From Clostridiales bacterium (GTDB lineage: Bacteria > Bacillota > Clostridia > Oscillospirales > Oscillospiraceae), in contig JALERU010000061.1 of NCBI GenBank assembly GCA_022764045.1, positions 1-64,000 on the forward strand: a DNA stretch of 64,000 nucleotides, read 5' to 3'. A program made the position numbers and the translations under genes. Below, in pieces: positions 5,644-36,579 of this stretch (within the stretch, counting starts at the first letter, position 1; every line of letters starts with the position of its first letter). The notes under the pieces were generated by a model, which saw nothing but the letters and a program-made list of their open reading frames with translations, made no database searches and was not told the origin of the DNA.

Positions 5644-5723
5644 TCGAAATAATTCTGCTCTCATAAAAACGGTGCTAATACATTTGTAAGCACCGTTTTT
5701 CTATTGTAACGTCACTACGAAAT

Positions 5724-5897
5724 CGCCCCCTCATCAGTCAGCTGCGCTGACAGCTTCCCCCCGAGGGGAAGCCTACGCTACTTCGGTACGTTGGGGTGAT
5801 TACTACGGTATTTCTCTACATAAGCCATACAGGGTTTGCCAAAGCCTTCCCCTGGGGGGGAAGGTGGGCCGGCCAAAGGCCGGGTCGGATGAGGGCG
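5724..5897 (+). repeat. Dispersed TIR repeat, copy A1
   Basis: CGCCCCCTCATCAGTCAGC...GGCCGGGTCGGATGAGGGCG with internal hairpins. Confidence 0.9.
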
Positions 5898-5982
5898 GGC
5901 GTTGAGGGTTTCACAGCGTAGGTAATAGACCCACCGGCCCAAGGTGGCAACGAGATTCTTCTACCCTCCGTTACTACGAAAT

Positions 5983-6209
5983 CGCCCCCTCATCAGTCAC
6001 CTTCGGTGACAGCTATGGTTTAAGGTGGCTTCGCATTGGATTGAATCGAACTGTCCCCCGGACAGTTCGACCCCCGAGGGGAAGCCTACGTGCTTTGTTA
6101 CGTTGGAGTGATTGCTGCGGTATTTTTCTACATAAGCCATACAGGGCCTGCCAACGCCTTCCCCTGGGGGGGAAGGTGGGCCGGCCAAAGGCCGGGTCGG
6201 ATGAGGGCG
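5983..6209 (+). repeat. Dispersed TIR repeat, copy A2 (variant with ~60-nt module)
   Basis: As A1 but with TATGGTTTAAGGTGGCTTCGCATTGGATTGAATCGAACTGTCCCCCGGACAGTTCGACCCCC replacing the left arm of the GCTTCCCC hairpin. Confidence 0.9.
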
Positions 6210-6446
6210 AGCGTTGAGGGTTCCGCAGCGTAGGAATAAAAGCAACTGCCTGCCCAACTGGCCCCGACCCCCCGCGCCGTAAGGCCAAATTGGAAAGAAA
6301 ACGACGCCGGAGAGCAGTTGGTTTTGTGCCAGCCGCTCTTTTTTTCGCAATCCAAGAAAAACCCGTGAAAAACCTACGGGTTTGTGCTAAAATAAACTAT
6401 TCAGGTGCGGCGCTCCGCCGCCAATAGACAGAGGAGGCGCACAGCC

Positions 6447-11908: not shown

Positions 11909-13828
11909 ATGGAAGAACACAACACCCAAGCACAGACGACCTATGAGGCCGGCTCCTACCACGTGGCCGTGGTGGGAGCCGGCCATGCGGGCATTGAGGC
12001 CGCCCTGGCCTGCGCCCGGCTGGGGCTGAGAACGGTGTGCTTTACCATCAACCTGGACGCTGTGGGAAACATGCCCTGCAACCCCGCCATCGGCGGCACC
12101 GGCAAGGGCCACCTGGTCCGGGAACTGGACGCCCTGGGGGGCGAGATGGGGAAGGCCGCCGACCAGGCCTGCATCCAGTACCGCCTGCTCAACCGGGGCA
12201 AGGGCCCCGCGGTCCACTCCCTCCGGGCCCAGGCCGACCGGCGGGAGTACCAAAAAATCATGAAACACACCCTGGAGCGCCAGGAGAACCTGTGGGTCAA
12301 GCAGGCCGAGGTCACAAAGCTCCTCACCCAGGACGGCCGCGTGGCCGGGGTGCAGACCCACACCGGGGCCATCTACCGGGCCCAGGCGGTGGTGATCTGC
12401 TCGGGAACCTATCTGGGGGGCAAGACCAGTGTGGGCCAGGTGACCAAGTGGAGCGGCCCCGACGGCATGTTTGGGGCCAACCAGCTCACCCAAAGCCTGC
12501 TGGAGGCCGGCCTCACCCTACGCCGGTTCAAAACGGGGACCCCGCCCCGGGTCAACGCCCGGTCCATCGACTTCTCCCGGCTGGAGTGCCAGGAGGGGGA
12601 CGAGGACGCCATCCCCTTCTCCTTTGAGAACGAGACGCCCGCCCCCAACCGGGTGTGCTGCCATATCACCTACACCAACGAAAAGACCCACGCCATCATC
12701 CGGGCCAACCTCCACCGCTCCCCCCTCTTCTCTGGGGTCATCGAGGGGGTGGGGCCCCGGTACTGCCCCTCCATTGAGGACAAGGTGGTCCGCTTTGCGG
12801 ACAAGCCCCGGCACCAGCTCTTCCTGGAGCCCATGGGGCTGGACACCGAGGAAATTTACATCCAGGGCTTTTCCTCCTCCCTCCCCGAGGACGTGCAGCT
12901 GGAAATGCTCCACACCCTGCCGGGGCTGGAGGAGGCCGAGATGACCCGCCCGGCCTACGCCATCGAGTACGACTGCGTGGACCCCACCCAGTTGCTGCCC
13001 ACTCTGGAGCACAAAAAAGTGGCCGGCCTTTACGGGGCGGGCCAGTTCAACGGTTCCTCGGGCTATGAGGAGGCCGCCGTCCAGGGTTTTGTGGCGGGGG
13101 TCAACGCGGCCTTGAAAATTTTGGGCCGTCCCCCCCTCGTCCTGGACCGGAGCCAGGGGTACATCGGGGTCCTCATCGACGACCTGGTGACCAAGGGCAC
13201 CAACGAGCCCTATCGGATGATGACCTCCCGCACGGAATACCGCCTGCTCCACCGCCAGGACAACGCCGACCAGCGTCTGTGCCCGGTGGGGTATGAGATC
13301 GGCCTGGTGAGCCGGGCCCGGTATGAACGGGTTTTGGAAAAATATGAACAAGTGAAACAAGAAATTCACCGCCTGGAGCACAGCGGCGTGGCGGCCACCC
13401 CGGCCCTCAACGCCCTGCTGGCAGCCAAGGGGGAGGCTCCGGCCAAAAACAGCCTGCGGCTGGCCGACCTGCTCCGCCGCCCTCGGCTGTGCTATGCCGA
13501 TCTGGCCTCCCTGGACCCTCACCGCCCGGCCCTGCCCAAGGTTGTCACCGAGCAGGTGGAGATTTCTCTGAAATACGAGGGCTACATCGCCCGGCAGCAG
13601 CGCCAGGTGGAGGAGATGCGCCGGTTGGAGGGGAAGGTCCTTCCCCCGGACCTGGACTACCAGACCCTGGCCGGCCTGCGCCTGGAGGCCCGGCAGAAGC
13701 TCAACGACATCCGCCCCCAAAACCTGGGCCAGGCCTCTCGGATTTCCGGGGTCTCCCCGGCGGACGTGGCCGCGCTGATGATCGCCCTGGAACGCAAGGA
13801 CCAATCAGGAGAACGCCCATGCAACTGA
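11909..13828 (+). CDS. mnmG: tRNA uridine-5-carboxymethylaminomethyl modification enzyme MnmG (GidA)
   Basis: [45 protein letters not shown], full-length GidA sequence. Confidence 0.97.
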
Positions 13829-14733
13829 CCAATGTAAAAGGAAACACCTGGGTTTGGGAGGGCCCCCAGTTGGTGGGGGTCTACCAGATCAGTGACAAAA
13901 CCTGCCTTCTGCTGGACCCCGGCAGCACCAAGCTGCGGGAAGGGGTGGAGGAGGCCCTGTCCGCCGCCGGACTCACCCCGGTGGGAGTGATCTGCACCCA
14001 CATGCACTACGACCACCACGAGACCAGCAAGTATTTCCGCCAGACCTACGGGGCCCAGGTCTGCCTGCCCCAGTTGGAGGCCGATATCGTCCGCAGTGAG
14101 GAGAGCTTGAAAAACCACCTTTTTAACTTCACCATGGGGATGATCCGCACCGTCCCAAGGCTCCAAAACCTGGTCTGCCCGGTGGACCGGGTCATTGGCC
14201 TGGGCGAGACCGAGATCGACTTCTGCGGGGTAACCCTGGGGATCGTCCACACCCCCGGCCACTCCCCGGACCATATCTGCGTGGTCACCCCCGACAACGT
14301 CTGCTTCGCCGGAGACGCCTTGATGACCGAGGACGTGCTCAAAGATGCTATGGTGCCCTTCGTCTTCGACATGGCCGACGACTTGAAGAGCAAGGAGATC
14401 CTGGCCGGGCTGGACTGCGACGCCTACATCTTCTGCCACAGGGGGGTCGTCTATGGCCCGGTGGCGGAGCTGGCGAAACAAAACGCCGACCACATCCGGG
14501 GCCAGCTGGCGGCCTGCGCCGCCCTGGTGACGGAGCCTATGACCTACAGCCAGTTTTACGCCGCCGTGGTCACCGCCATGGACCTCCCCGTGGGCCATCC
14601 CGCCCGGGGACTGCATTTGGAGCGGTACATCCGGCCCTATGTGGAATATCTCATTGACACCGGCGCGCTGGCGCTGATAGAACAGAACGGCGCCCCGGCG
14701 GTGGCTCCCAAGGAGGCGCGCCATGGGGAATAA
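13819..14733 (+). CDS. MBL-fold metallo-hydrolase (paralogue 1)
   Basis: CTHMHYDHH (HxHxDH) and [12 protein letters not shown] at 13819 overlaps mnmG by 10 bp. Confidence 0.85.
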
Positions 14734-15766
14734 GTCTGTGGTTCTGGGCCTTTCCGGCGGGGTGGACTCCGCCGTGGCCGCCCGGCTGCTCCAAGAGGCG
14801 GGTTACACGGTTTACGGCCACTGGCTGGACATCGGCCTGGGAGGACGGGAGGACGCCCAGCGGGTGGCCGAGACCTTTGGCATCCCCTTCTCCACGGGGG
14901 ACATCCGCCGGGCGCTGGAGGAGGAGGTTATGGGCCCCTTCCAGCGGGACTACCTGGCCGGGCGGACCCCCCTGCCCTGCGCCCGGTGCAACCCCACGGT
15001 GAAATTCCCCGCCCTCTTCCGCCGGGCCCAGGAGGTGGGGGCGGACTTTGTGGCCACGGGCCACTACGCCCGCATTGAGACCGGGGCGGACGGGGAGACC
15101 CGCCTCTGCCGGGGGGCCCACACCAACGACCAGGCCTACATGCTGGCCCGGCTGCCCAAGGCCTGGCTGCCCCGGATTCTCTTCCCCATCGGGGGCTATG
15201 AAAAGACCCAGGTCCGCCAGCTGGCCCGGGACTTCGGCATCCCTGTGGCGGAAAAGCCCGACAGCATGGAGATCTGCTTCATCCCCGACGGAGACTACGC
15301 CGCCTGGCTGGACCGGCGGGGGACCACGCCGCCCCCCGGCGACTTTGTGGACAAGACGGGCAAGGTTTTGGGCCGGCACAAGGGCATCCACCACTATACC
15401 ATTGGCCAGCGGCGGGGTTTGACCATTTCCGCCGGGCACCGGCTGTTCGTATCGGCCATCTGCCCGGAAGACGATACCGTGGTCCTCTCTGACGGCACCG
15501 ACCTGATGGCCGATGTGGTCTGGGGAGAGGACTGGAACCCCTTGGCCCCTGTGGAAGAGGGGGAGGAGGTCACCGTCCGTCTGCGCCATTCCAAAAACGA
15601 GACCCCTGCCCGGTTTTCCCCCGCGGGCACGGGAGGACGTCTGGAACTGCTGGCCCCCGCCCGGGCCCCCACCCCCGGCCAGTTGGCGGTGCTCTACCGG
15701 GGGGACACCGTGCTGGGCAGCCTGTGGATCACCGGGGCCCGGCGGGTGAATGAGGAAAAGGAGTGA
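14723..15766 (+). CDS. mnmA: tRNA-specific 2-thiouridylase MnmA
   Basis: LGLSGGVDSAVAARLL PP-loop, CNPTVKF, ATGHYAR, DQAYML, ICFIPDGDY, HHYTIGQRRGL. Confidence 0.96.
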   Translation: MGNKSVVLGLSGGVDSAVAARLLQEAGYTVYGHWLDIGLGGREDAQRVAETFGIPFSTGDIRRALEEEVMGPFQRDYLAGRTPLPCARCNPTVKFPALFRRAQEVGADFVATGHYARIETGADGETRLCRGAHTNDQAYMLARLPKAWLPRILFPIGGYEKTQVRQLARDFGIPVAEKPDSMEICFIPDGDYAAWLDRRGTTPPPGDFVDKTGKVLGRHKGIHHYTIGQRRGLTISAGHRLFVSAICPEDDTVVLSDGTDLMADVVWGEDWNPLAPVEEGEEVTVRLRHSKNETPARFSPAGTGGRLELLAPARAPTPGQLAVLYRGDTVLGSLWITGARRVNEEKE

Positions 15767-15772
15767 AAGGCT

Positions 15773-16768
15773 GTGGAGCTGCGTCAGGTGAAAGGAAACA
15801 CCTGGGTGCTGGAGAGCTGGGAGCTCATCCCGCTGTACAAAGTGGACGACCACCGGTGCATCCTGCTGGACACGGGGACCTATGACCAGCGGGAGGAGAT
15901 CGAGGCCGCCCTGGCTCAGGCGGGCCTCACCCCGGTGGCCGTGCTGGGGAGCCACGCCCACATTGACCACATGGGCTCCTACGCCTATTTCCAGCGGGAG
16001 CGGGGGGCCCTTCTGGCCCTGACCCTGGGAGAGGCGGGGCAGATCTTCTCCCCCCTGGGGATTCAGTTACAGTATTACAACCTGAACTTGGGAGCCTTTG
16101 CCGACTACCCCGAGCTGGCAACCGCCCCCTGCCTGCCGGACCGGATCATTTTGCCCCAGGAGCGGGAGGTCACCCTTTGCGGGGTGACCTTCGGCCTGGT
16201 GCGCACCCCCGGCCACACGGTGGACCACATCTGCGTGCGCACCCCGGACAATGTCCTGTATCTGGCCGACGCCATGATGACCGGGCGGGTGCTCTACCAC
16301 GCCAAGTTCCCCTATGCCTTTTCCATGGAGGTCTATCTGGACTCCCTGGCAAAGCTCCGGGGGGAGAAGGCGGACAAGTATATCGTGGCCCACAAGGGGG
16401 TCTATGGAGAGATTTTACCCTTTATTGACCTGGAGCTCCAGTTTCTCCGCCAGCGGATGCTGGGCCTGCTGGAGCTCATCCAAGGGCCGATGACGGCCAA
16501 GGACCTCACCGCGGCCATCTGCCGGCGGGACCACGTCCCCGCCCGAAACCCCAGGCACCTGGCCTATTTTGAACAAGCCAGCCAGACCTACCTCACCTAC
16601 CTGGCCGACCGGGGCTACCTGACCCTGGCGGCGGAGGATAACCGGCTGGTTTACCGCAAGGCCCCCAATCTCCGGCCCTCGGCGGCTCCCATGCCCCCCA
16701 CCGGGCAAGTTTGGCCCCAGAGGAATCCAACCCAAGGGAGGAACCCATCATGGAACTGGAACAAGTGA
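15773..16768 (+). CDS. MBL-fold metallo-hydrolase (paralogue 2)
   Basis: GSHAHIDHMG and RTPGHTVDH; GTG start; shares the VKGNTWVLESWELIPLYKVDDH N-terminus with paralogue 3. Confidence 0.85.
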   Translation: MELRQVKGNTWVLESWELIPLYKVDDHRCILLDTGTYDQREEIEAALAQAGLTPVAVLGSHAHIDHMGSYAYFQRERGALLALTLGEAGQIFSPLGIQLQYYNLNLGAFADYPELATAPCLPDRIILPQEREVTLCGVTFGLVRTPGHTVDHICVRTPDNVLYLADAMMTGRVLYHAKFPYAFSMEVYLDSLAKLRGEKADKYIVAHKGVYGEILPFIDLELQFLRQRMLGLLELIQGPMTAKDLTAAICRRDHVPARNPRHLAYFEQASQTYLTYLADRGYLTLAAEDNRLVYRKAPNLRPSAAPMPPTGQVWPQRNPTQGRNPSWNWNK

Positions 16769-17709
16769 AAGGCAGCACCTGGGTGCTGAAAAGCTGGGAG
16801 CTCATCCCCTTTTACAAGGTGGATGACCACCACTGCGTCCTGCTGGACACGGGCCTTGCCGAGCAGCGGGAGGACCTGGAAACCAGCCTGACCCAGGCCG
16901 GCCTCACCCCAGTGGGGGTGATTTGCAGCCACGCCCACATCGACCACATGGGCAACATGGCCTACCTGAAAGAGACCTACGGCACCCAACTGGCCATGTC
17001 CCTGGGAGAGGCGGGCCACCAGATGAGCTACCTGGGCCTGAATGTCACCAATTATCTTATGTCCCCCGAAGACGTGGTGGCCTCCCCCTCCCTGGGGGGT
17101 ACTCCCTGCTTGGCCGACCGGATCATTCTGCCCGGGGAGGAGAGGATCACCTTCTGCGGGGCGGACTTCGACATCATCCGCACCCCCGGCCACACGGTGG
17201 ATCACATCTGCGTGGGCACCCCGGACAATGTGCTGTATCTGGGGGACGCCATGATGACGGGGCGGACCCTTCACCACTCCAAGTTCCCCTATGCCTTCTG
17301 CGTCCGGGACTATCTGGACTCCATGCGGAAACTGCGCACCCTGCCGGCGGACAAGTTCATCGTGGCCCACTTCGGGGTCTATGACGAGATCCTGCCCCTG
17401 GTGGACATGGAGGCCCGGTTCTTCGCCGAGCGGATGCTGGACCTGCTGGACCTGGTGGGGGACTACACCACCCCCAAGCTGCTGGCCTCGGCCATCTGCC
17501 GGCGATACCGCATCAACGCCGGGGACCTGCGGGACCTGTCTTATTTCGAGGCCTCAGCCCTGTCCTACATCAACTACCTGCGTGGCCTGGGCTATTTGGA
17601 GGCCTACATAGAGGACAACCAAATCCGCTACCGGCGAACCCCGGCCTCCTACCAGCGGAAAGAGGGAAAACGCCAGGCGGAGCTGCCCAAGACGGGGCAG
17701 TTTCGGTGA
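16750..17709 (+). CDS. MBL-fold metallo-hydrolase (paralogue 3)
   Basis: CSHAHIDHMG, RTPGHTVDH; MELEQVKGSTWVLKSWELIPFYKVDDH; overlaps paralogue 2 by 19 bp. Confidence 0.85.
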   Translation: MELEQVKGSTWVLKSWELIPFYKVDDHHCVLLDTGLAEQREDLETSLTQAGLTPVGVICSHAHIDHMGNMAYLKETYGTQLAMSLGEAGHQMSYLGLNVTNYLMSPEDVVASPSLGGTPCLADRIILPGEERITFCGADFDIIRTPGHTVDHICVGTPDNVLYLGDAMMTGRTLHHSKFPYAFCVRDYLDSMRKLRTLPADKFIVAHFGVYDEILPLVDMEARFFAERMLDLLDLVGDYTTPKLLASAICRRYRINAGDLRDLSYFEASALSYINYLRGLGYLEAYIEDNQIRYRRTPASYQRKEGKRQAELPKTGQFR

Positions 17710-17727: not shown

Positions 17728-17767
17728 AAAAAGCGCGGTCTGAGTGATGTGCTCAGACCGCGCTTTT
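17728..17767 (+). terminator. Terminator of the mnmG-mnmA-MBL operon
   Basis: AAAAAGCGCGGTCTGAG-TGATGTG-CTCAGACCGCGCTTTTT. Confidence 0.85.
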
Positions 17768-17840
17768 TGTTTGGGCGGGGAGACCTGCTGCCACCTTACG
17801 TCGGTGCGTCTATGACCCACGCTGAGGAATCCTCAACGCT

Positions 17841-18015
17841 CGCCCTCATCCGACCCGGCCTATGGCCGGCCCACCTTCCCCCCCAGGGGAAGGCGATTGG
17901 CAAGCCCTGTATGGCTTATGTAGAAAACTACCGTAGCAAAACCCCCAACGTAGCCTAATAGCGTAGGCTTCCCCTTGGGGGGAAGCTGTCAGCGGAGCTG
18001 ACTGATGAGGGGGCG
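17841..18015 (-). repeat. Dispersed TIR repeat, copy B1
   Basis: CGCCCTCATCCGACCCGGCC...GCTGACTGATGAGGGGGCG. Confidence 0.9.
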
Positions 18016-18099
18016 ATCTGGAGTATCGGCGGGTAGAAGAATCCCGTTGCCATCTTGGGCCGGTGGGTCTATTACCTACGCCGAGGAATCCTCGACGCA

Positions 18100-18275
18100 C
18101 GCCCTCATCCGACCCGGCCTGCGGCCGGCCCACCTTCCCCCCAGGGGAAGGCGATTGGCAAAGCCTGTGTGGCTTACTGTAGAAAACTACCATAGCAAAA
18201 ACCACAACGTAGCATAGCACGTAGGCTTCCCCTCGGGGGGGGAAGCTGTCAGCGCAGCTGACTGATGAGGGGGCG
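18100..18275 (-). repeat. Dispersed TIR repeat, copy B2
   Basis: Tandem with B1, conserved spacer between. Confidence 0.9.
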
Positions 18276-18308
18276 ATCCAGAATACCGCCGGAGCAGAAC
18301 ACACTCCG

Positions 18309-20441
18309 TTACACGCCGTCGTTCTCCCCTGCCAGCCGGACCACGTAGTCTGTGCTCTGGGGGTCGCCGGGGACGGTGGTGTGGGCGATGTAAAGGAATC
18401 GGTCAAGCTCGCAGTAATAGTAGTTGGTTTCGTTCCCCTGGCTGTCCAGAACCTGATAGAGGGAGCAATCGAGATAGTCATCCAGGGAAAGCTCCTTTAG
18501 GCCGGGAATTTCCTTTAGCGTGGACAAGGGCTTGCTGATGCAGACGGGGGTAGCATAGTCGTCTGAAACAGGCCAAGCAGAGGAGAGAACGTTGACCAGG
18601 GTGGCGGCAAAGCGATCCGACTGAACAACAAAGGAAGTGGAGGGGAGATAGGCCTCCGACGGCCCCAGGTCGTCTGCCCAGTAGAGGACTTCGGCAATTT
18701 GATACGTACCGCCTCCCTGAAAGGCGGTGAGAGGGCTGCCGTTCTCAAGCCAGAGATCCAGTGTCTTTTTCCAATAGGGCTGGAACTGCGTAAAGGAATC
18801 AAACACTGCCTTGGAGCCGGAGACAGAGGAGATACCCTGATCGTTATTGCTCTCCTGGGCAGGCAGATCCCAGCAAAATTCACCGGCGTTATCGACCAGG
18901 TTGCAGAAAATGAGCCCGCAGAACGCAAGATAGTATTCCACATACGGGTACGTATCTGGGGAAACAGCCTGCTCAAATTGCAGGGTAATGGAATAGGGCT
19001 CGGTCTCCGTCTGCAAAGAAATGGTATAGGGCCCCACCGCCTGGGAGACATGAAGGGCCTCCAAAAGAGCCTGGCAGGCGGGGGCGTCCCCAATGTAGGG
19101 CGTTTTGCAGGCATAGACCTCTTCCCCCCAGCCGGTGTTGAGGTAGGTATCCAGCGCAAGCACAAAGTCCCGCCACCGCTGGTCTTGGCAGAAGCTGGCG
19201 TCTAAAACCTGGAGTTTCCGGGTGGCGGAATAGCCGTCGTGGTTCACCCGGACCAGTTGGGCATAGTCCCCCGCCGTGGCGTCCAGATAAAACTGGGTGC
19301 CTCCGTTGGGATCAGAGAGGCAGAGGGAACCGTCTGCGGGGGTGTAGCTCTCCAGAGGGGTGTAGTCCTCCCGGTCATAGTCCCGGACCAGGGCCACCAG
19401 ATCCCGTTGCAGCTCCTCCGGCAGGGGAAGGGAGATGTGGCGCTGCTGCACAGCGCTCTCGGTGATGGATACCCCCTCCAACTGTGCCCCTTGCTTGCCG
19501 GGGTTGGCCAGCATGAGGACGGCGGCCACCACACAGACCACCAGGGCGGTGACCGCCACCCAGAGCCGGGGGTGCCGGTAGTCCAGCACGTGGCGGATGC
19601 GTCCCTTGGGGTCCTCCTCCCCAAAGGCCAGGGGGACGGCCTGGGGCAGGGAGGTCTTGTGGCCCAGACGGAGGAGGGTGGTGGCGTACTGGACGGTGTG
19701 GTCGGGGTCGAAGGACCGGATCACCGCCTGGTCGCAGGCGGTTTCAATGTCCCGGCAGAGGAGCCGGTAGGACAGCCACAGCAGGGGATTGCACCAGTGC
19801 AGGCACAGGGCCACCCAGGCCAGGGGCTTAGCCCAGTGATCCCGCCGGCGGATGTGGGCCTGCTCGTGGAGGAGAACGTATTGCCGGTCACCGGCGGCCA
19901 TGCCGGCGGGGAGATAGATCCGGGGACGGAAAAAACCGCAGACAAAGGGGCCGCCAATTTGGTCGCTCTCATAGATGTTATCCCGGAGGAGGACTGCCTC
20001 CGCCAGCTTCCGCCGGAGACGGAGGTAGGAGACCCCGCCCCAAAGGAGCATCCCCCCGGCCCCCAGCAGCCAAAGAGAAGTGACCAGGTCCGACCAGGAG
20101 AGGGCGGGGGATTCCTCTTGGGGTGCGGAAGGGAGCGCCGGCTCTGTGGCGGGCAGCACCGGCGACGGGGCCTCTTCCTGGATGGGAGACGGGACCACGG
20201 GGGCCTCCTCCCGGGCCGGGGCGGTTGCAAGGTAGGTTCCCTGGGCGATGGGGGCGGGGATGAGGCTCACCGGCAGGGAAAAGCTCACCGGGCAGACCAT
20301 CCGCAGGAAGACCACCGCCCACAGGCAGCAGAGAATCCACCGGGGGGCCTTTTTCAGCAGCAGCCGCAAAACCATCACGCACAGGGCGGCCACCGAGGCG
20401 GTGGCGGTCATGGTGAGCAGCGTTTGGAGGATGGGGTTCAT
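18309..20441 (-). CDS. M56 family (BlaR1/MecR1-like) membrane metallopeptidase 4
   Basis: PFVCGFFRPRIYLPAG, YVLLHEQAHIRRRDH (HExxH), LHWCNPLLW, ETACDQAVI. Confidence 0.9.
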   Translation of the reverse strand: MNPILQTLLTMTATASVAALCVMVLRLLLKKAPRWILCCLWAVVFLRMVCPVSFSLPVSLIPAPIAQGTYLATAPAREEAPVVPSPIQEEAPSPVLPATEPALPSAPQEESPALSWSDLVTSLWLLGAGGMLLWGGVSYLRLRRKLAEAVLLRDNIYESDQIGGPFVCGFFRPRIYLPAGMAAGDRQYVLLHEQAHIRRRDHWAKPLAWVALCLHWCNPLLWLSYRLLCRDIETACDQAVIRSFDPDHTVQYATTLLRLGHKTSLPQAVPLAFGEEDPKGRIRHVLDYRHPRLWVAVTALVVCVVAAVLMLANPGKQGAQLEGVSITESAVQQRHISLPLPEELQRDLVALVRDYDREDYTPLESYTPADGSLCLSDPNGGTQFYLDATAGDYAQLVRVNHDGYSATRKLQVLDASFCQDQRWRDFVLALDTYLNTGWGEEVYACKTPYIGDAPACQALLEALHVSQAVGPYTISLQTETEPYSITLQFEQAVSPDTYPYVEYYLAFCGLIFCNLVDNAGEFCWDLPAQESNNDQGISSVSGSKAVFDSFTQFQPYWKKTLDLWLENGSPLTAFQGGGTYQIAEVLYWADDLGPSEAYLPSTSFVVQSDRFAATLVNVLSSAWPVSDDYATPVCISKPLSTLKEIPGLKELSLDDYLDCSLYQVLDSQGNETNYYYCELDRFLYIAHTTVPGDPQSTDYVVRLAGENDGV

Positions 20442-22831
20442 GGCTGTTCTCCTTCCAATTCATAGATGGTGGGATGACTGTTGTCGTCTTCCGAAAAACG
20501 TAGGTAGACATCCTCTGTGGTGGAAATGAGCTGTTCTTCCAAACGGAAGAAATATTCCAGATACCATTGGTCGGTGCCCCAAATGTGGTACCAGTAGGCC
20601 AGATAGAGCCCGTCGTCCGCTTGATAGATCCGGTAGCCGGTATCGCTGTCAGACCAGAGACTGTGGTCCTCATATTCCTCGCCCGTGGCTGGTTCAGAGA
20701 GATGATAGAGATACCAGGCATTCAGGACGGTGTGTCCAGCCAGCAAATCCTCGGGATGGTGGGCCGGGTCGGCCACGGTGTAGTCTGTCAACGGAGCGTA
20801 GGCTTGCAGGAAGCTGTTTCGGATCTGATCCGGCATACCGGCCCGAGTGGAGGTGTAAAGGGGGGATAGGAAGGGGGAAAGAATAAACTCTCCCGGCTCC
20901 TGGGGGGTACCAAAGTAGGGGCAGTACCCCAAGACAAGCCCCTCAGAAGTGCTGTTGGAATACAAGGTCTCCCCAATGGTATACGCCGGGTGGAAGACAT
21001 AGTACACAATGCCGGAAACTGTGGTGTAGTTGGGCAAGGACATCACATTTTCCCACCACCACAGGTGCCGCTGGGGATAGAGGTACTGGAAGGCCTCCAG
21101 GGGCCACAGCCGCAGCCCGTCGCCGCTGGCGGGCAGGCCGCTTCGGTCCACCCGGAACCCCACCCCGTTGTCGGGGTGGTACCAGGCGAAGTCGTCCACC
21201 TCCGGGGTCACCGACAGGAAGAGCAGGCCCAGGGACCGCAGGGCCCGGTCTGCCCACTGCCGCTGCGCCGCGCTGGTGACAGAGGTTTCCGGGGCCAGTA
21301 CCAGGGTCTTGTGCTGGCCGGGGCGGGCTTGGAACTGGAGGGTGTAGTCCCCCACGGCCTTCCGGACCCCCAAGGCGTCCAGCAGAACCCGGGCGGCGTC
21401 CAGGTCGTCGGCACTGGCGGGGGCCAGGTCATAAAGTTCCTGGGCGGAGGGGTGGGGGAGCAGGGCGTCGGTCTGCTCCCACCAGTCCACCCAGCGGTGG
21501 TAAACGGTGTTGGAGGTGTATTTGGCGTAGTGGCTGTAATCCCCATCCAACTGGGCCATGCGGCAGGTGTCCCCCTGGGCCCCATGGCGCACCTGGACCA
21601 GCCAGGGTTGAGAGACCTGGGTGGTCAGCAGCCGGTATTCCACAGGGGAATCGGGCCGGGAGAGCAGGATGGTCCCCTCGGGCAGGCCGGGGTCCTCACA
21701 GGGGGTATAGCGGCTGTGATGGGTGTCGTCCAGCACCGAGACCAACTCCTGAAGCAGGGAATCGGGCAGGGGGATGGCTTCCCTCTGGCTGACCATGGCC
21801 CCTTGGGAGATGAAGTGCCCGCCCAGCCGGTAAGTGCCCTCTTCCGGGTCCGCTGCCAGACAAATGGTCACCAGCAGGCAGGCCGCCAGGGCAATGGAGA
21901 GCACCCAGGCCACCGGGCGCTTGTATTGGAGCAAAACCTCGATCCGCTCCTTGGCGTCCTCCTCTCCAAAGGCCAGGGGCACGGCGCTGGGGACCCCCGG
22001 TTCCCGGCTCAGGTGGAGGAGGGCGGCGGCATAATCCGCGGCGTCCCCCTCCTCCCCCTGGTCAAACTGCCGCAGCACCGCCTGGTCGCAGGCGGTCTCG
22101 ATGTCCAGGCAGAGCAGCCGGTAGGCCACCCACAGCACGGGGTTGAACCAGTGGAAGCAGAGGATGCAATAGGCCAGGGGCTTGGTCAGGTTGTCGCCCC
22201 GGCGGATGTGGGCCTCCTCGTGGAGGAGGACATAGCGGCGGTCCTGTCCCGCCAGCCCCAGGGGAAGGTAGATTTTTGGGTGAAGAATCCCCAGCACAAA
22301 GGGGGAGGGGATGAGGTCGGTTTCATAGAGGTTGCCCTCCACCTTCACCGCCTCGGCGGTGCGCCGGTGGAAGCGGCGGTAGCAGACCCCCGCCCAGGTC
22401 AGGGCCACCAGGGTCCCCGCCGCCCAGCCGCCAAAGACCACCTTGGGCCAAAGGGGCGGAGCAAGGGGAAGGGGATCGTAGGTGGGGGCGGCGGCCTGGG
22501 CTCCCGGCGCGGGAGCTTCCTGCCCGGCTGGGGAGGGGGATTGGTCCGGGGCCTCCGTGGGGGGAGCGCCCTGGGACGCTGGGTCGGCAGCGGGCGGGGA
22601 AGAGGAGAGGACAAACTGGGCCGCCGAGCCGTCGGCAATCCCCCGGGGCACCAGGCTCACAGGAAGCTGGAAGCTGGCGGGGCAGACCATGCGAAAGAAG
22701 ACCGCCAGCCACAGCAGGCAGACCAGGGCCCGGGGAAGCTTGGGCAGGAAGAACCGCACCGCCATGACCACCAGGGCCACCAGCCCGGCGGACAGGCTCA
22801 TGGTGAGCAGGGTGTAGAGAAATTGTTCCAT
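20438..22831 (-). CDS. M56 family (BlaR1/MecR1-like) membrane metallopeptidase 3
   Basis: PFVLGILHPKIYLPLG, YVLLHEEAHIRRGDN (HExxH), HWFNPVLW, ETACDQAVL; 4-bp overlap with the next gene. Confidence 0.9.
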   Translation of the reverse strand: MEQFLYTLLTMSLSAGLVALVVMAVRFFLPKLPRALVCLLWLAVFFRMVCPASFQLPVSLVPRGIADGSAAQFVLSSSPPAADPASQGAPPTEAPDQSPSPAGQEAPAPGAQAAAPTYDPLPLAPPLWPKVVFGGWAAGTLVALTWAGVCYRRFHRRTAEAVKVEGNLYETDLIPSPFVLGILHPKIYLPLGLAGQDRRYVLLHEEAHIRRGDNLTKPLAYCILCFHWFNPVLWVAYRLLCLDIETACDQAVLRQFDQGEEGDAADYAAALLHLSREPGVPSAVPLAFGEEDAKERIEVLLQYKRPVAWVLSIALAACLLVTICLAADPEEGTYRLGGHFISQGAMVSQREAIPLPDSLLQELVSVLDDTHHSRYTPCEDPGLPEGTILLSRPDSPVEYRLLTTQVSQPWLVQVRHGAQGDTCRMAQLDGDYSHYAKYTSNTVYHRWVDWWEQTDALLPHPSAQELYDLAPASADDLDAARVLLDALGVRKAVGDYTLQFQARPGQHKTLVLAPETSVTSAAQRQWADRALRSLGLLFLSVTPEVDDFAWYHPDNGVGFRVDRSGLPASGDGLRLWPLEAFQYLYPQRHLWWWENVMSLPNYTTVSGIVYYVFHPAYTIGETLYSNSTSEGLVLGYCPYFGTPQEPGEFILSPFLSPLYTSTRAGMPDQIRNSFLQAYAPLTDYTVADPAHHPEDLLAGHTVLNAWYLYHLSEPATGEEYEDHSLWSDSDTGYRIYQADDGLYLAYWYHIWGTDQWYLEYFFRLEEQLISTTEDVYLRFSEDDNSHPTIYELEGEQP

Positions 22832-22855
22832 GGAGGTCTCCTTTCTGAAAGGGGG

Positions 22856-25099
22856 TCAGGATGGGGCGAGGGTCAGCTCAGCCACATAGAGGGGGAGATC
22901 CGCCTGGCCTCCGTCGGGGTAGTAGGCCAGGAAAAGGGAGTCATCCTGAAAATAGTAACAGTATCCGGTAAAGTGGTCCTCTTGGTCCCAAACCTGGTAA
23001 GTCTCCGTGGCTCCCTCTGGGGCGACGGGGAAGGAGATGTCAGAGAGACCGCCGGGGGAGAAGTCGGGGCGGTGCAGCTCCACCTGGGTTTTTTCCAGGG
23101 AATCCGTGTTATTTATGGTGGTGTCGGGATAGCCAGTCTCGGAGCCATCTCCCAGCCGGATGGCAAAATAGTCACGGCGAAGGACGACCTTGAGCGTGCT
23201 GCGGTAGAGGTCCTCCATCTCCTGGGAGAATTCCGGAAAATCAGAGTCGGGAAGCACCGTAAATTCCTTCACCGCGTAGCACCGCCCGGTGGGCTTGCCG
23301 GGGAAATAGGGGGAGAGATCGTCGTGGTGGAGGGTGAAATAGGTTCGGAACGTCTCGAGCGAGTAGGAGTCTACCGGGGTCGAGTCCCTAACAGAGCTGT
23401 TGGAAAGGGTGTATGGAACGGAATCCGCCTCCACCTGGGTGTTGGGGGGATAGACATAGCGGAGCTCTTGGACGTTGTCGATCAGGGCCAGGATGGGGAG
23501 GCTGACGGACTTAAAATAGGATTCAATCCAATGCCATTCCAGCGCATTGGCGGGGGGCCGTTCCAGGTTGAGGACGATGCTGTAGGGCTCCTCCTCCGTC
23601 TGGAAAGAGAGGGTGTAGGGCCCCACGGCGTCTTCCACGCAAAAGGCATCTAAGATGGCCTCTATGTCAGCGGTCTTGCCCCTGTGGGAGACCTTCAGGG
23701 CGTAAAGATCCTCCGCCCGGCCAATGGCGAGGTAGTATTCCACCTTGGCTTTCCAGTCGGCATAGGCCTGGGAGCCGGCAAGCCCGTCCGCCAGCACCGC
23801 CCGCTGACAGGGGAAGGGAGCGGTGGGGAGGACCCGGTAGAGGACCAGCTCCCCACCTTCTTCCAGGAGATAGTAGGTGGCCGGCCCGTCGGGGCTGGAG
23901 AGGGTCACCGCCCGGTCGGGCAAATCCTCAGGGGCGGGACAGGAGACAAAGTTCCCAAAGTCGGCCTGGGCCAGCAGGTCGGTGAGATCCCGGGTCAGGT
24001 CCTGGGAGAGGGGTACGTTGGTGGGAACCTTGCACGGTTCGTTGGCAGGGACCTTGCGCTGTTCTGCCCAGGCCTTTCCGGAGAGGAGCGTTTCCACCAC
24101 CGTGGCCTGGGTGATTTCCCGCCCCTCCAACTGGGCCGGGGGCGCGGCCCGGTCGGCCAGCAGCAGGACCCCGGTCACCACGCAGGCGGCTACGGCGGTC
24201 ACAACCAGCCAAAAGGCGGGCTGTTTGTAAGAGAGCACCGAGCGGACCCGGCCCGTGGCGTCCTCCTCCCCACCGGCCAGGGGGACCACGGCGGGGAGGG
24301 ACGGGCCGTGACCCAGGTGGAGCAGGGCTTCGGCATATCGAACGGTGTCTTTGCCGTCGAAGGAGCGGATCACCGCCTGGTCGCAGGCGGTCTCAATGTC
24401 CCGGCAGAGGAGCCGGTAGGACAGCCACAAAATGGGGTTGAACCAGTGGGCACACAGGGCCAGGTAAGCCAGGGGTTTCATCAGGTGGTCGCCCCGGCGG
24501 ATGTGGGCCTGCTCATGGAGGAGAACGTAGCGGCGGTCCTCCCCTCCCAACCCCGCAGGCAGATAGATGCGAGGCCGGAAAAACCCGCAGACGAAAGGGG
24601 TGTCGATCTGGTCGGTCTCGTAGATGTTTTCCTCTATGCGGACCGCGTCCGCGATCCGCCGCCGGAGCCTGCCATAGGAAAGCACAGCCCAAAGGAGGGC
24701 GGCGGCCCCGCCCACAGCCCAGACACCAGTGAGGATGATGGGCCACACGGAGGCATTTTCGGTGGGGATCGCCGTGTGCACCACGGGGGCGGAGACTTCC
24801 CCGCTGGCAGTTGGGGTGGCCTCCGGCACGGCCTCTTCCGGGGCAGCGGAGGGGGCAGCCTGTTGGGCCGGGGGCAGGACCCGCTCCAGGGAGGCCCCGT
24901 TGGAAATGGCCTGGGGCATCAGGCTCACGGGCAGGGAAAGCCCTGTGGGGCAGACCATCCGCAGAAAGACCACCAGCCAGAGGCAGCAGGGAATCCACCG
25001 GGGGGCCCGTTTCAAAGGCAGCCGCAGGACCATCACGCATACCGCAGCCACAGAGGCCGTGGCGGTCATGGTGAGCAGGGTTTGGATCAGTTGTTCCAT
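22856..25099 (-). CDS. M56 family (BlaR1/MecR1-like) membrane metallopeptidase 2
   Basis: PFVCGFFRPRIYLPAG, YVLLHEQAHIRRGDH, HWFNPILW, ETACDQAVI. Confidence 0.9.
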   Translation of the reverse strand: MEQLIQTLLTMTATASVAAVCVMVLRLPLKRAPRWIPCCLWLVVFLRMVCPTGLSLPVSLMPQAISNGASLERVLPPAQQAAPSAAPEEAVPEATPTASGEVSAPVVHTAIPTENASVWPIILTGVWAVGGAAALLWAVLSYGRLRRRIADAVRIEENIYETDQIDTPFVCGFFRPRIYLPAGLGGEDRRYVLLHEQAHIRRGDHLMKPLAYLALCAHWFNPILWLSYRLLCRDIETACDQAVIRSFDGKDTVRYAEALLHLGHGPSLPAVVPLAGGEEDATGRVRSVLSYKQPAFWLVVTAVAACVVTGVLLLADRAAPPAQLEGREITQATVVETLLSGKAWAEQRKVPANEPCKVPTNVPLSQDLTRDLTDLLAQADFGNFVSCPAPEDLPDRAVTLSSPDGPATYYLLEEGGELVLYRVLPTAPFPCQRAVLADGLAGSQAYADWKAKVEYYLAIGRAEDLYALKVSHRGKTADIEAILDAFCVEDAVGPYTLSFQTEEEPYSIVLNLERPPANALEWHWIESYFKSVSLPILALIDNVQELRYVYPPNTQVEADSVPYTLSNSSVRDSTPVDSYSLETFRTYFTLHHDDLSPYFPGKPTGRCYAVKEFTVLPDSDFPEFSQEMEDLYRSTLKVVLRRDYFAIRLGDGSETGYPDTTINNTDSLEKTQVELHRPDFSPGGLSDISFPVAPEGATETYQVWDQEDHFTGYCYYFQDDSLFLAYYPDGGQADLPLYVAELTLAPS

Positions 25100-25134
25100 G
25101 GGTGCCTCCTTTCTGAAGGGGCGTGGGTACAGGG

Positions 25135-27228
25135 TCAGGTCCTCAACTGGACCAGGTATTCCAGGGTTTCCCCGCCGCCGGTGAGATCAAAGTGAGCCAG
25201 GAACACATTGCCGTCCCATTCGTAGATGCGGTAGCCGGTGTCCTGGGTGTGGGCATCCTGGATCACCGTGCAGATGGCCTGGCCCGGGTGCTGGGCCGGG
25301 TCTGCGCCGTAGGCGGCCAGGAAGTCGTTGGCGGGGGTCAGGTCTTGGGAGGGGAAGTAGTAGGGGTCACCGTAAGACCCCTCTGTGCCGCTGCCCAGGG
25401 CGGGGCTCTGAAAGCTGTAGGACCGGATGTCGTAGGAGGCCCTGGCCAGGGCGGCTTTCGGCACGTGGGGCGCGGCATAGAGCACCTGGCGTGTGGCGTA
25501 GGTGTGGGAAGGGTTACGGCTGAAATAGGCGCCCCCTGTCTGCTGCATCTGCCGGTACGCCAGACGGAAGGCCTCCGGGTCATCCGTGCCCGGCGCTGCT
25601 GCGGTGAAATAGGGGTGAAGGGTCCCGTGGGCGTCCTTGGCGGCCCAGGTAATGGTGTCGATGTTGCCGAGAAGGGAAAACAAGACGGCCTGTGTGCAGT
25701 GCAGGTAGGGGAAGAGGATTTCCTCCTGCTCGCTCAGAATGGGCGGCTGTTCCAATGCGATGGTCAGGCGGCAGGGCTGGGAACTCCGGTCCAGTTGGAG
25801 GGAATAGCCGCCGGATACCAAGGAGAAGTTGAGCTCAGCCAGCAGCGCGGAGAGTTCATCCTCGTCCTGGATCTCCCGGCCCCGGTTCGCAAAAAGCGTA
25901 TCCGGGCGAGTAGTCCACAGGTAGGTGTCGAGCTTTTCCTGCCAAGCGGCGTAGGCCGCGTGGCACGCCGGGGGCATGGGATACTTTCTCGAGGTAAACC
26001 GATCTCCGCCGACATAGTGATCCACAAGGAGATCGAGGGTATCCTGGGTGTACAGGAAGGTGTAGCCGCAGTCTTTGCCGTGTTGGAACTCCGGGGAGAG
26101 GGTTACCGTTCCCTCTGCCCAGATGGCCTGGGTGTCGAGGTCGGAAGGTTCGGTGGCTTCCGGCAGATCATATTGGGCCACCAGCTCGATCAGCTCGTTT
26201 TGCAGGTCTGTTGGGATGGTTACAGAGATGTGATTGACCCACACTTTGCCGGAGAGGATGTCATCTCCCTTAAACCGCTGGGTGGCATCCGCCAGCAGCA
26301 GCACCCCGGCCACCACGCAGGCGACCACGGTGGCCACCACCAACCAAAAGGCGGGCTTTTTATAAGAGAGCACCGAGCGGACCCGACCTTTCGCGTCCTC
26401 CTCCCCAAAGGCCAGGGGGACCACGGCGGGGAGGGACGGGCCGTGACCCAGGTGGAGCAGGGCTTCGGCATATTGAAGGGTGTCTTTGCCGTCAAAGGAG
26501 CGGATCACCGCCTGGTCACAGGCGGTCTCAATGTCCCGGCAGAGGAGCCGGTAGGACAGCCACAAAATGGGGTTGAACCAGTGGACACACAGGGCCAGGT
26601 AGGCCAGGGGCTTCATCAGATGGTCGCCCCGGCGGATGTGGGCCTGCTCATGGAGGAGAACGTAGCGGCGGTCCTCCCCTCCCAACCCCGCAGGCAGATA
26701 GATGCGGGGTCGGAAAAACCCGCAGACGAAAGGGGTGTCGATCTGGTCGGTTTCATAGACGTTTCCGTCCACGCGGATCGCGTCCGCGATCCGCCGCCGC
26801 AGCCTGCCGTAGGAGACCACAGCCCACAGCAGCGCAGCGGCCGTTCCCGCTGCCCAGATAACCGTAAGGGCTACGGGCCAAAGGGGTGCGCTTGCGTCAG
26901 GAGTCTCCGTTCGCGTGACGGGAGTCGCCGGCATGGAGACGCCCGTTTCCTGGATGGGAACCGTTGGGATGGGCTCTTCCGGTGCGGCCTGGGGCGCGGT
27001 GGGCAGGATGTCTTCCACATAGCTCCCGTTGGAGACGCCTTGGGGTACCAGGCTCACGGGCAGGGAAAGTCCTGTGGGGCAGACCATCCGCAGAAAGACC
27101 ACCAGCCAGAGGACGCAGGGAATCCACCGGGGGGCCCGTTTCAGGGGCAGGCGCAGGACCATCACACACACCGCAACCACGGAGGCGGTGGCGGTCATGG
27201 TCAGCAAAGTCTGAATTAAGTGTTCCAT
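25135..27228 (-). CDS. M56 family (BlaR1/MecR1-like) membrane metallopeptidase 1
   Basis: Same motifs; N-terminal half nearly identical in DNA and protein to peptidase 2. Confidence 0.9.
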   Translation of the reverse strand: MEHLIQTLLTMTATASVVAVCVMVLRLPLKRAPRWIPCVLWLVVFLRMVCPTGLSLPVSLVPQGVSNGSYVEDILPTAPQAAPEEPIPTVPIQETGVSMPATPVTRTETPDASAPLWPVALTVIWAAGTAAALLWAVVSYGRLRRRIADAIRVDGNVYETDQIDTPFVCGFFRPRIYLPAGLGGEDRRYVLLHEQAHIRRGDHLMKPLAYLALCVHWFNPILWLSYRLLCRDIETACDQAVIRSFDGKDTLQYAEALLHLGHGPSLPAVVPLAFGEEDAKGRVRSVLSYKKPAFWLVVATVVACVVAGVLLLADATQRFKGDDILSGKVWVNHISVTIPTDLQNELIELVAQYDLPEATEPSDLDTQAIWAEGTVTLSPEFQHGKDCGYTFLYTQDTLDLLVDHYVGGDRFTSRKYPMPPACHAAYAAWQEKLDTYLWTTRPDTLFANRGREIQDEDELSALLAELNFSLVSGGYSLQLDRSSQPCRLTIALEQPPILSEQEEILFPYLHCTQAVLFSLLGNIDTITWAAKDAHGTLHPYFTAAAPGTDDPEAFRLAYRQMQQTGGAYFSRNPSHTYATRQVLYAAPHVPKAALARASYDIRSYSFQSPALGSGTEGSYGDPYYFPSQDLTPANDFLAAYGADPAQHPGQAICTVIQDAHTQDTGYRIYEWDGNVFLAHFDLTGGGETLEYLVQLRT

Positions 27229-27261
27229 AAGGGCCTCCTTTCAGGGGGCAGGGGGCAAGGA

Positions 27262-27630
27262 TCAGTGGCTTTGCTTATACTCCTCCAGCATTTTTTCAAT
27301 TTCGGCGGCCTCCTGATCGCTGACGCTGCCGGCCCGGAGGAAGGCGGCCAGGAAGTTGGGCAGAGAGCCGCCGAAGGACCGCTGCAGGACCTCCTGCCCG
27401 TCAGCCTGCTGGACGGTGGCTTTGTCCACCAGGGAGGTGACAATGGTGGCCTCGTTTTTCAGGCAGCCCTTGTCGCACAGGCGCTTGATGACGGTGTAGG
27501 TGGTGGTGCGCTTCCAGCCCAGGGTTTCCTCGGCCAGCTTGCACAGATGGGGGGAGGAGATGGGCTCGGCCGACCAGACCAGGTCCAGCAGACGGTGGTC
27601 GGCTAAGGAGAGGGGTTGCTTCGGTTTCAT
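27262..27630 (-). CDS. BlaI/MecI/CopY-family transcriptional repressor
   Basis: LSLADHRLLDLVWSAEPISSPHLCKLAEETLGWKRTTTYTVIKRLCDKGCLKNE (BlaI winged helix); immediately upstream of the M56 array. Confidence 0.92.
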   Translation of the reverse strand: MKPKQPLSLADHRLLDLVWSAEPISSPHLCKLAEETLGWKRTTTYTVIKRLCDKGCLKNEATIVTSLVDKATVQQADGQEVLQRSFGGSLPNFLAAFLRAGSVSDQEAAEIEKMLEEYKQSH

Positions 27631-27654
27631 AGGACATACCTCCAGTCGAAGGGT

Positions 27655-27695
27655 TTAGACAACTGTAGTCTAACATGCTCGACTGACATTGTCAA
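27655..27695 (-). promoter_or_regulatory. Promoter and BlaI-type operator of the blaI-M56 operon
   Basis: Minus strand: TTGACA (27690-27695), 17-nt spacer, TAGACT (27667-27672); near-perfect 19-bp palindrome TTAGACTACAGTTGTCTAA (27655-27673) over the -10. Confidence 0.7.
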
Positions 27696-27730
27696 GGGAT
27701 TTCTCAGAAGAAGGCGAAGCCCGCCCCAAC

Positions 27731-29134: not shown

Positions 29135-29288
29135 GGCGTGGCCCTCCTTTGTGTTGCAGAAATCAGGCGGCCGCCTGGGACCGCCTGGGAAGTATGGCGT
29201 TATTATAGCCTCTTTTCTGCCTCAACGCAAGGGCATTGGCGCGGGGGGTTCGTGCGTCTGTTACCTACGCTGAGGGACCCTCCAGACT

Positions 29289-29463
29289 CGCCCTCATCCG
29301 ACCCGGCCTGCGGCCGGCCCACCTTCCCCCCCAGGGGAAGGCGATTGGCATAACCTGTATGGCTTACTGTAGAAAACTACCGTAGCAAAAACCCCAACGC
29401 AGCATAGCACGTAGGCTTCCCCTCGGGGGGAAGCTGGCACCGAAGGTGACTGATGAGGGGGCG
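29289..29463 (-). repeat. Dispersed TIR repeat, copy C1
   Basis: CGCCCTCATCCGACCCGGCC...GGTGACTGATGAGGGGGCG. Confidence 0.9.
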
Positions 29464-29496
29464 ATATGGTAGTGACGGTGGGTAGAAGAATCTCGT

Positions 29497-29650
29497 TGCC
29501 ACCTTCCCCCCAGGGGAAGGCGATTATTGGCAAACCCTGTGTGGCTTATTGTAGAAAAATACCGTAGCAATCACTCCGACGTAGCATAGCACGTTGGCTT
29601 CCCCCCCGGGGGGGGGGAAGCTGTCAGCGCAGCTGACTGATGAGGGGGCG
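29497..29650 (-). repeat. Dispersed TIR repeat, copy C2 (lacks one terminal arm)
   Basis: Starts directly at CCACCTTCCCCCCAGGGGAAGGCG; left TIR and GGCCGGCC hairpin missing. Confidence 0.85.
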
Positions 29651-29817
29651 ATGCGGAATACCGGCGGGTAGAAGAACTCCGCCCCTCAAAACCCGAAGAC
29701 CCGGCGAGAAAGGGAGGGAAATCCAGGAAGAAAAGAATTGCATTTCCCTATAGCTTTTTGCGAGAAAAGATGATACAATGTATTACATATTAGATAGATA
29801 AAGAGGGAGGCGGTACC

Positions 29818-36167: not shown

Positions 36168-36240
36168 CCCTGTGTGGCTTATGTAGAAAACTACCGTAGC
36201 AAAAACCCCAACGCAGCATAGCTGACTGATGAGGGGGCGA
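36168..36240 (-). repeat. Dispersed TIR repeat, copy D1 (internally deleted fragment)
   Basis: CCCTGTGTGGCTTATGTAGAAAACTACCGTAGCAAAAACCCCAACGCAGCATAGCTGACTGATGAGGGGGCG. Confidence 0.85.
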
Positions 36241-36324
36241 TTTCGGAGTGACGGCGGGTAGAGGAATCCCGTTGCCACTTTGGGCGGGTGCGTCTATTAC
36301 CAACGCCGAGGAATCCTCAAGGCT

Positions 36325-36502
36325 CGCCCTCATCCGACCCGGCCTGCGGCCGGCCCACCTTCCCCCCCAGGGGAAGGCGATTGGCAAGCCCTGCATGGCT
36401 CACTGTAGAAAACTACCGTAGTTAATAACTCCAACGTATCGTAGTAGCGTAGGCTTCCCCTCGGGGGGAAGCTGTCAGCGGAGCTGACTGATGAGGGGGC
36501 GA
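36325..36502 (-). repeat. Dispersed TIR repeat, copy D2
   Basis: CGCCCTCATCCGACCCGGCC...GAGCTGACTGATGAGGGGGCG. Confidence 0.9.
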
Positions 36503-36579
36503 TTTCGTAGTAACGGTGGGTAGAAAAATCCCGTTGCCACCTTGAACGATCCCCCTGTGCGCGAAGGAGGCGCAAACCA

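Follow-up and report, generated by a model that had tools for sequence, protein, structure and literature searches.

We identified an operon in an Evtepia-lineage gut bacterium in which one gene for a BlaI-family repressor is followed by four genes for membrane sensor-proteases of the M56 family, all on the minus strand. This four-sensor array is real and intact, unusual, and conserved in its lineage. The textbook receptor that signals through repressor cleavage is BlaR1, and with moderate confidence we read the operon as a convergent transmembrane proteolytic switch of the same kind, in which signals from outside, probably several, converge on a single repressor; judged from sequence, this switch controls only its own operon. 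The protease halves of the four sensors have histories that conflict with those of their outer domains.

Layout of the array and its counterparts in relatives

The window (the whole stretch of DNA that was analysed, 64,000 nucleotides) belongs to an incomplete draft assembly of 94 contigs that is about 90% complete. The initial annotation placed one BlaI gene and four M56 genes here; their coordinates and lengths matched exactly on rechecking, and all five proteins scored above their Pfam cut-offs. We lettered the proteases A to D by operon order, equivalent to W_1 to W_4 in our trees:

27262..27630, minus strand: BlaI-family repressor, 122 aa, with a winged-helix N-terminus (PF03965, 65.8 bits; cut-off 22.6)
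25135..27228, minus strand: M56-A, 697 aa (PF05569, 158.7 bits; cut-off 31), with a TM/protease module at 26287-27228 and an ectodomain at 25138-26286
22856..25099, minus strand: M56-B, 747 aa (PF05569, 158.2 bits; cut-off 31), with an ectodomain at 22859-24151 that contains DUF4825 at 23417-23707 (PF16107, 38.9 bits)
20438..22831, minus strand: M56-C, 797 aa (PF05569, 131.1 bits; cut-off 31), with an ectodomain at 20441-21847 that has no DUF4825 match
18309..20441, minus strand: M56-D, 710 aa (PF05569, 156.6 bits; cut-off 31), with an ectodomain at 18312-19502 that contains DUF4825 at 18837-19115 (PF16107, 52.8 bits)

In operon order, successive genes are 33, 35, and 24 bp apart until M56-D, whose ATG lies in a 4-bp overlap with the end of M56-C. 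All five genes are intact, and internal stops are absent from the four M56 copies.

Within the genus of the window, which includes Evtepia gabavorous, the array locus is syntenic, with one to four M56 copies in the conserved order RlmI-like, BlaI-M56n, MBL-fold, MnmA-like: the RlmI-like methyltransferase flanks the blaI side, and the MBL-fold and MnmA-like genes flank the far side. Among loci that reach the flanking genes, there are four M56 copies in the window and in G194 (goat-rectum MAG RGIG3085), two in G240 (Evtepia gabavorous KLE1738), one in G398, two plus an SLH-domain gene in G278, and one plus an ectodomain-like lipoprotein gene in G345 (MAG S22M_St_14). G401 has two M56 copies, and the arrays of G404 and G402, which are split over contigs, are compatible with four copies in G404 and three or more in G402, in the order of G194. 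These relatives bear on whether the array was produced by draft assembly, with tandem copies collapsed or made chimeric. The genome is indeed a draft, and repeats are difficult to assemble; nevertheless we find such an artefact scarcely credible, as the complete four-copy array of G194 comes from an independent assembly and has the same flanks, the G404 and G402 fragments are consistent with its copy order, and E. gabavorous KLE1738 has its two copies at the syntenic place.

Beyond the genus, the initial premise that one sensor-protease per repressor is normal was borne out. In the rest of the family 60 of 62 sampled BlaI-M56 operons have a single M56 gene and the other two have a pair, in a partial sample ranked by similarity to the query; in a class survey of 59 genomes, also a partial sample, every M56 gene among the listed matches was single, apart from the window's genome, and no tandem M56 pair appeared elsewhere. 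The single-copy BlaI/M56-DUF4825 operons of Clostridia have the same repressor-protease pair as the array, with DUF4825 right behind the protease, but one M56 per BlaI.

Several loci have additional features. The window's own genome (G000) has a second multi-M56 locus on contig C1:20000-33000 (L096), where BlaI lies between two M56 genes (M56-BlaI-M56); G240 has a counterpart (L095). In G345 (L046:8796-9977, plus strand, equivalent to L081:7974-9155) a 393-aa protein with a lipobox (LLLAGC) is encoded between blaI and the only M56 gene; it is 25-29% identical to the M56 ectodomain over about 400 aa and is probably a free-standing, lipid-anchored sensor domain. In G278 (L053:8599-9885, plus strand, equivalent to L084:7704-8990, minus strand) an exported 428-aa S-layer homology protein (PF00395) is encoded between two M56 genes on the same strand.

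Downstream, at 13489-17709 of the window, related MBL-fold genes, two recognised by Pfam (15773-16768 and 16711-17709) and one by similarity (13489-14733), lie around an MnmA-like gene at 14723-15766; this arrangement is partly conserved in relatives and is convergent to the M56 array. Between the array and the MBL gene lies a perfect 17-bp inverted repeat (17728-17768) with a 7-base loop and flanking A and T runs, likely a terminator acting in both directions. The window also contains, at 17789-18300, 29252-29677, 36169-36503, and 5722-6238, a dispersed repeat some 230-260 bp long. It often forms tandem pairs with GGGGAAGG-type inverted ends and has 81 matches in the genome, fragments included.

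Catalytic residues, cleavage sites, and ectodomains

The key residues of Staphylococcus aureus BlaR1 are H201ExxH, Asp210, E242xxxD, and Tyr261; its autocleavage bond is Ser283-Phe284, and BlaI is cut at Asn101-Phe102 (PMC9834060). H193ExxH, D202, E234xxxD, and Y253 of M56-A align with this set at identical spacings, and alignment confirmed the early observation that catalytic residues are retained in all four window copies, with HExxH, the supporting Asp, ExxxD, and Tyr all kept at BlaR1 spacing. A motif aligned to the predicted autocleavage site, VPLAF, is present in M56-A, M56-C, and M56-D and, judging from the alignment, is the equivalent of that site. M56-B has VPLAG, with Gly replacing the Phe, the sole window copy so altered, and may be resistant to autocleavage; in 125 distinct family sequences aligned, this column holds Phe in 101, a gap in 12, and another residue in 12 (Gly in three). 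The window BlaI has LPN-F at the position of the S. aureus BlaI cleavage site, and SLP[NS]F, with the P1' Phe, is conserved in the BlaI orthologues of 10 genus members. From this homology we infer that each M56 copy could cleave BlaI. Against TIGR02698, the CopY/TcrY copper repressor family, the window BlaI scored 38.5 bits (cut-off 122).

The array resembles the BlaI-BlaR1 and MecI-MecR1 systems of staphylococci and B. licheniformis in its winged-helix BlaI-family repressor, its M56 zinc protease with TM architecture and full active-site set, its repressor-cleavage and autocleavage motifs, and an operator over the promoter. It differs from them in having four proteases per repressor, an ectodomain fold without a solved structure, and no PBP-like sensor; neither a beta-lactamase nor a PBP2a gene under control of the repressor was found, and the genome yielded no second operator, although weak sites could escape the search.

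These differences weigh against amplified ordinary BlaR1-type beta-lactam sensing that controls resistance, a reading suggested by the BlaI plus M56 architecture and by the MBL-fold genes downstream. We consider it very unlikely: a Pfam profile search found no transpeptidase or PBP family match in any of the four ectodomains, in agreement with the initial annotation, which had spotted no penicillin-binding pattern there; the four M56 proteins reached 68-75 bits against the NCBIfam blaR1_generic cut-off of 400; ectodomain models had no solved-structure match at E<=0.001; and the MBL genes, which lack the operator, run convergently to the array. PADLOC defence families were unmatched.

The ectodomains had been described as sharing only short patterns, but they do have a recognisable feature: DUF4825 (PF16107) is above its cut-off in M56-D and M56-B, weak in M56-A (19.7 bits, under the cut-off of 22.7), and undetected in M56-C. 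The AlphaFold model of the M56-D ectodomain is of fair quality (pLDDT 76.3). The low-confidence model of the M56-C ectodomain (mean pLDDT 57), whose input alignment included other window ectodomains, has the element order of M56-D in its first 250 residues, and neither this low-confidence model nor that of M56-D matched a solved structure in the PDB at E<=0.001. On the basis of these models, all four ectodomains likely share one fold without a solved relative. Elsewhere in Clostridia, DUF4825 is found in single-copy M56 proteins directly behind the protease (e.g., G411 and G444) and as stand-alone ORFs of 189 and 193 aa, which have an N-terminal hydrophobic segment that fits an extracytoplasmic domain, and of 335 aa. 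We found no paper on DUF4825 in the literature searched.

Histories of the protease halves and ectodomains

The four proteins had been divided into conserved N-terminal and divergent C-terminal halves. M56-A and M56-B indeed share 82% protein identity in the protease half versus 23-27% in the ectodomain, and M56-A and M56-D share 62% versus 22%; neighboring copies have protease halves that are 80-82% identical and ectodomains that are unrelated. The division is less clean than proposed, however, as the TM2-TM3 extracytoplasmic loop also diverges despite lying inside the “conserved” half (A/B identity 39%). We considered and rejected a coupling of this loop to the ectodomain: the partial Mantel r of 0.49 (p 0.0005) fell to -0.02 without close pairs. 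The dN/dS comparison of paralogues that had been proposed was saturated and uninformative for ectodomains, with dS values over 1 and just 22-27% identity in the alignments, and was replaced by orthologue comparisons and tree conflict. Orthologous ectodomains proved to be under purifying selection (dN/dS about 0.2-0.4), contrary to the view that they diversify freely.

The closest partner of each ectodomain is in another species: M56-A pairs with G240 copy 1 (then G194 copy 2), M56-B with G398, M56-C with G401 copy 1 (then G194 copy 1), and M56-D with G240 copy 2 (then G194 copy 4). The closest protease partners of M56-A and M56-B are one another. Correspondingly, the protease tree supports A+B (W_1+W_2) at 100/98, and the ectodomain tree supports A+G240_1 at 97/94 and their grouping with G194_2 and G404a_1 at 99/99. 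In AU tests of groupings picked after the trees were seen, such that p values are descriptive, protease data rejected A+G240_1 (p 2e-4), and ectodomain data rejected both A+B (p 6e-4) and a seven-member G194/G404 protease clade (p 2e-5). Protease data did not reject the ectodomain clade of the M56-C class (p 0.14), and ectodomain data did not reject a grouping of G194 copies 2 and 3 (p 0.25); we claim module conflict only for A/B and the larger G194/G404 protease clade.

Synonymous divergence in the protease half is 0.35 between M56-A and M56-B versus 0.82 between M56-A and G240_1, with flanking genes of the same two species at 0.53-0.70. Copies 2 and 3 of G194 share 81% identity in the protease half and no BLAST similarity in the ectodomain, while the copy 2 ectodomain is 81% identical to its G404 orthologue. 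The second locus on contig C1 has a milder form of the pattern, with protease halves 70% identical within the genome versus 51-59% to their G240 counterparts. Outside the genus, G268 (L138:5666-9213) has two tandem M56 genes after one BlaI, with dS 0 over 312 protease codons and ectodomains 45% identical, identity dropping at the ectodomain start; its DNA-identical protease halves represent either very recent conversion or repeat collapse in a draft assembly.

Could purifying selection on the protease, with fast ectodomain divergence after duplication and no recombination between copies, have produced this pattern? Protease halves have the slower dN in every comparison, as such selection would predict. 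We nevertheless think it very unlikely, as synonymous divergence of the A/B protease halves is also below between-species values, tree topologies conflict with reciprocal AU rejection, and dS in G268 is 0 up to the domain border. Furthermore, orthologous ectodomains remain 67-81% identical at protease dS of 0.36-0.48, and therefore unrelated ectodomains could not arise within dS of 0.35-0.42. The conflicting trees, the dS contrast, and the orthologous ectodomains instead indicate that protease and sensor modules recombine, and the conflict fits a history in which the protease half repeatedly recombined or underwent gene conversion; case by case, conversion of protease halves and swapping of sensor halves are indistinguishable routes. 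Each sensing half is old, distinct, and conserved in its own right. The initial proposal of a constant protease module and variable sensor modules acting on a single repressor is supported, with the addition that the two halves differ in history as well.

Operator, regulon, and the proposed switch

Upstream of blaI are a promoter-like site and a double operator:

27667..27695, minus strand: promoter-like site TTGACA-17-TAGACT, 10 of 12 consensus matches, position conserved in the genus
27645..27683, minus strand: operator, made up of a pair of 16-bp dyads (GTCKAA-n4-TTMGAC type) 23 bp apart, at 27668-27683 (one mismatch) and 27645-27660
27655-27673, minus strand: TTAGACTACAGTTGTCTAA, formed by the inner half-sites and covering the -10 box

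The promoter-like site is the sole one of the operon (one found in the operon region versus 1.6 expected by chance). TTAGAC-7-GTCTAA lies between the two dyads, over the -10 box. The initial annotation had put forward TTAGACTACAGTTGTCTAA as a candidate operator; this held, with a chance expectation of 0.07 in the window, and the element proved to belong to a more extended series of GTCKAA/TTMGAC half-sites. Eight genus members each have a single mismatch-free copy of TTAGACTAnnnTTGTCTAA, located upstream of blaI; the GTCKAAn4TTMGAC dyad is at the blaI promoter in those eight and in G313, G345, and G278; and an operator lies directly upstream of blaI in every array-carrying genome examined. The genome-wide operator scan called for earlier located sites at the blaI promoter and nearly none beyond it in carrier genomes. 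A pattern search, which weaker or differently spaced operators would escape, found no second operator elsewhere in the window's genome. Away from blaI promoters, the two patterns had two matches: a dyad in G278 and, in G044, a genome without the array, a site with two mismatches. The G278 site, a perfect GTCTAA-n4-TTAGAC dyad at contig C37:18743-18758 (L191), away from the array, is the sole second candidate target of the repressor seen with this pattern in the genus. With its operator nowhere else in the genome, the array presents itself as a self-switching switch without visible output.

The closest published precedent is the two-BlaR1 BlaI operon of Clostridium thermocellum. BlaI_0696 has sites composed of two pairs of GTCTAT inverted repeats, an operon of its own with two BlaR1 genes, and two further targets; BlaI_1845 regulates its own operon only (PMC8457756). 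The operator grammar of the array, two inverted-repeat pairs of GTCTAT-like half-sites, is very similar; unlike the BlaI_0696 operon with its two BlaR1 copies, the array has up to four, and shared protease halves or ectodomain classes are not reported in the accessible part of that study (PMC8457756). These systems provide precedents for the operator grammar, for regulation confined to a repressor's own operon, and for multiple BlaR1 genes with a single BlaI. An expansion to four copies and protease halves shared between copies are without precedent in the literature searched, which described no larger BlaI-M56 arrays, including in work on BlaI/BlaR of Mycobacterium tuberculosis and C. difficile.

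Self-only regulation also suggests that the array may be its own output, BlaI autoregulating the dose of envelope-acting ectodomain proteins that bind polymers, proteins, or peptides, with no separate response gene and possibly with other substrates for the proteases. We regard this as the main rival, possible if on balance unlikely. It is consistent with an operator that nearly all carrier genomes have at this operon alone and that marks no clear second target, with the free, lipobox-bearing ectodomain homologue encoded in the G345 operon (393 aa), with the exported SLH-domain protein between two M56 genes in G278, and with the single-operon BlaI regulon reported in C. thermocellum (PMC8457756). 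Yet four full protease catalytic sets and a BlaI cleavage motif fit sensing into the repressor, and the pattern search would miss weaker or differently spaced operators.

We favor the BlaR1-like switch. BlaI would repress its own operon via the double dyad over the promoter, and each M56 protein would expose its ectodomain, which in most copies has a DUF4825-type core, on the outside and hold its zinc protease within the cell. A signal, probably related to the cell envelope, would engage an ectodomain and free the protease to cut BlaI at the Asn-Phe bond. We infer OR logic, in which any one of the four sensors would derepress the operon, and sensors and repressor would rise together. Repeated recombination or gene conversion would keep the protease/TM halves alike across copies, which fits all copies having to match one repressor.

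BlaR1 dimerises by domain swapping, its subunits exchanging a cytosolic helix and the last TM helix, and near-identical TM/protease halves may thus preserve the ability to form mixed dimers. A doubtful extension of the switch is that it forms a combinatorial receptor array, in which paralogues with different outside domains make mixed dimers, and conversion separates constant signalling modules from inherited sensing modules. If true, four genes would yield up to 10 dimer types, and M56-B, without the autocleavage Phe, could be a stabilising or differently tuned dimer partner.

We know of BlaR1-type signalling almost only for beta-lactams. Here the BlaR1 engine is joined to outer domains that are not penicillin-binding, up to four-fold on one repressor; the shared engine has apparently been homogenised by recombination, and the sensors persist as separate lineages. 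Two questions become testable: what non-beta-lactam signals M56 proteases respond to, and whether paralogous receptors mix. In addition, the array offers a natural set of exchanged sensors on a common protease chassis.
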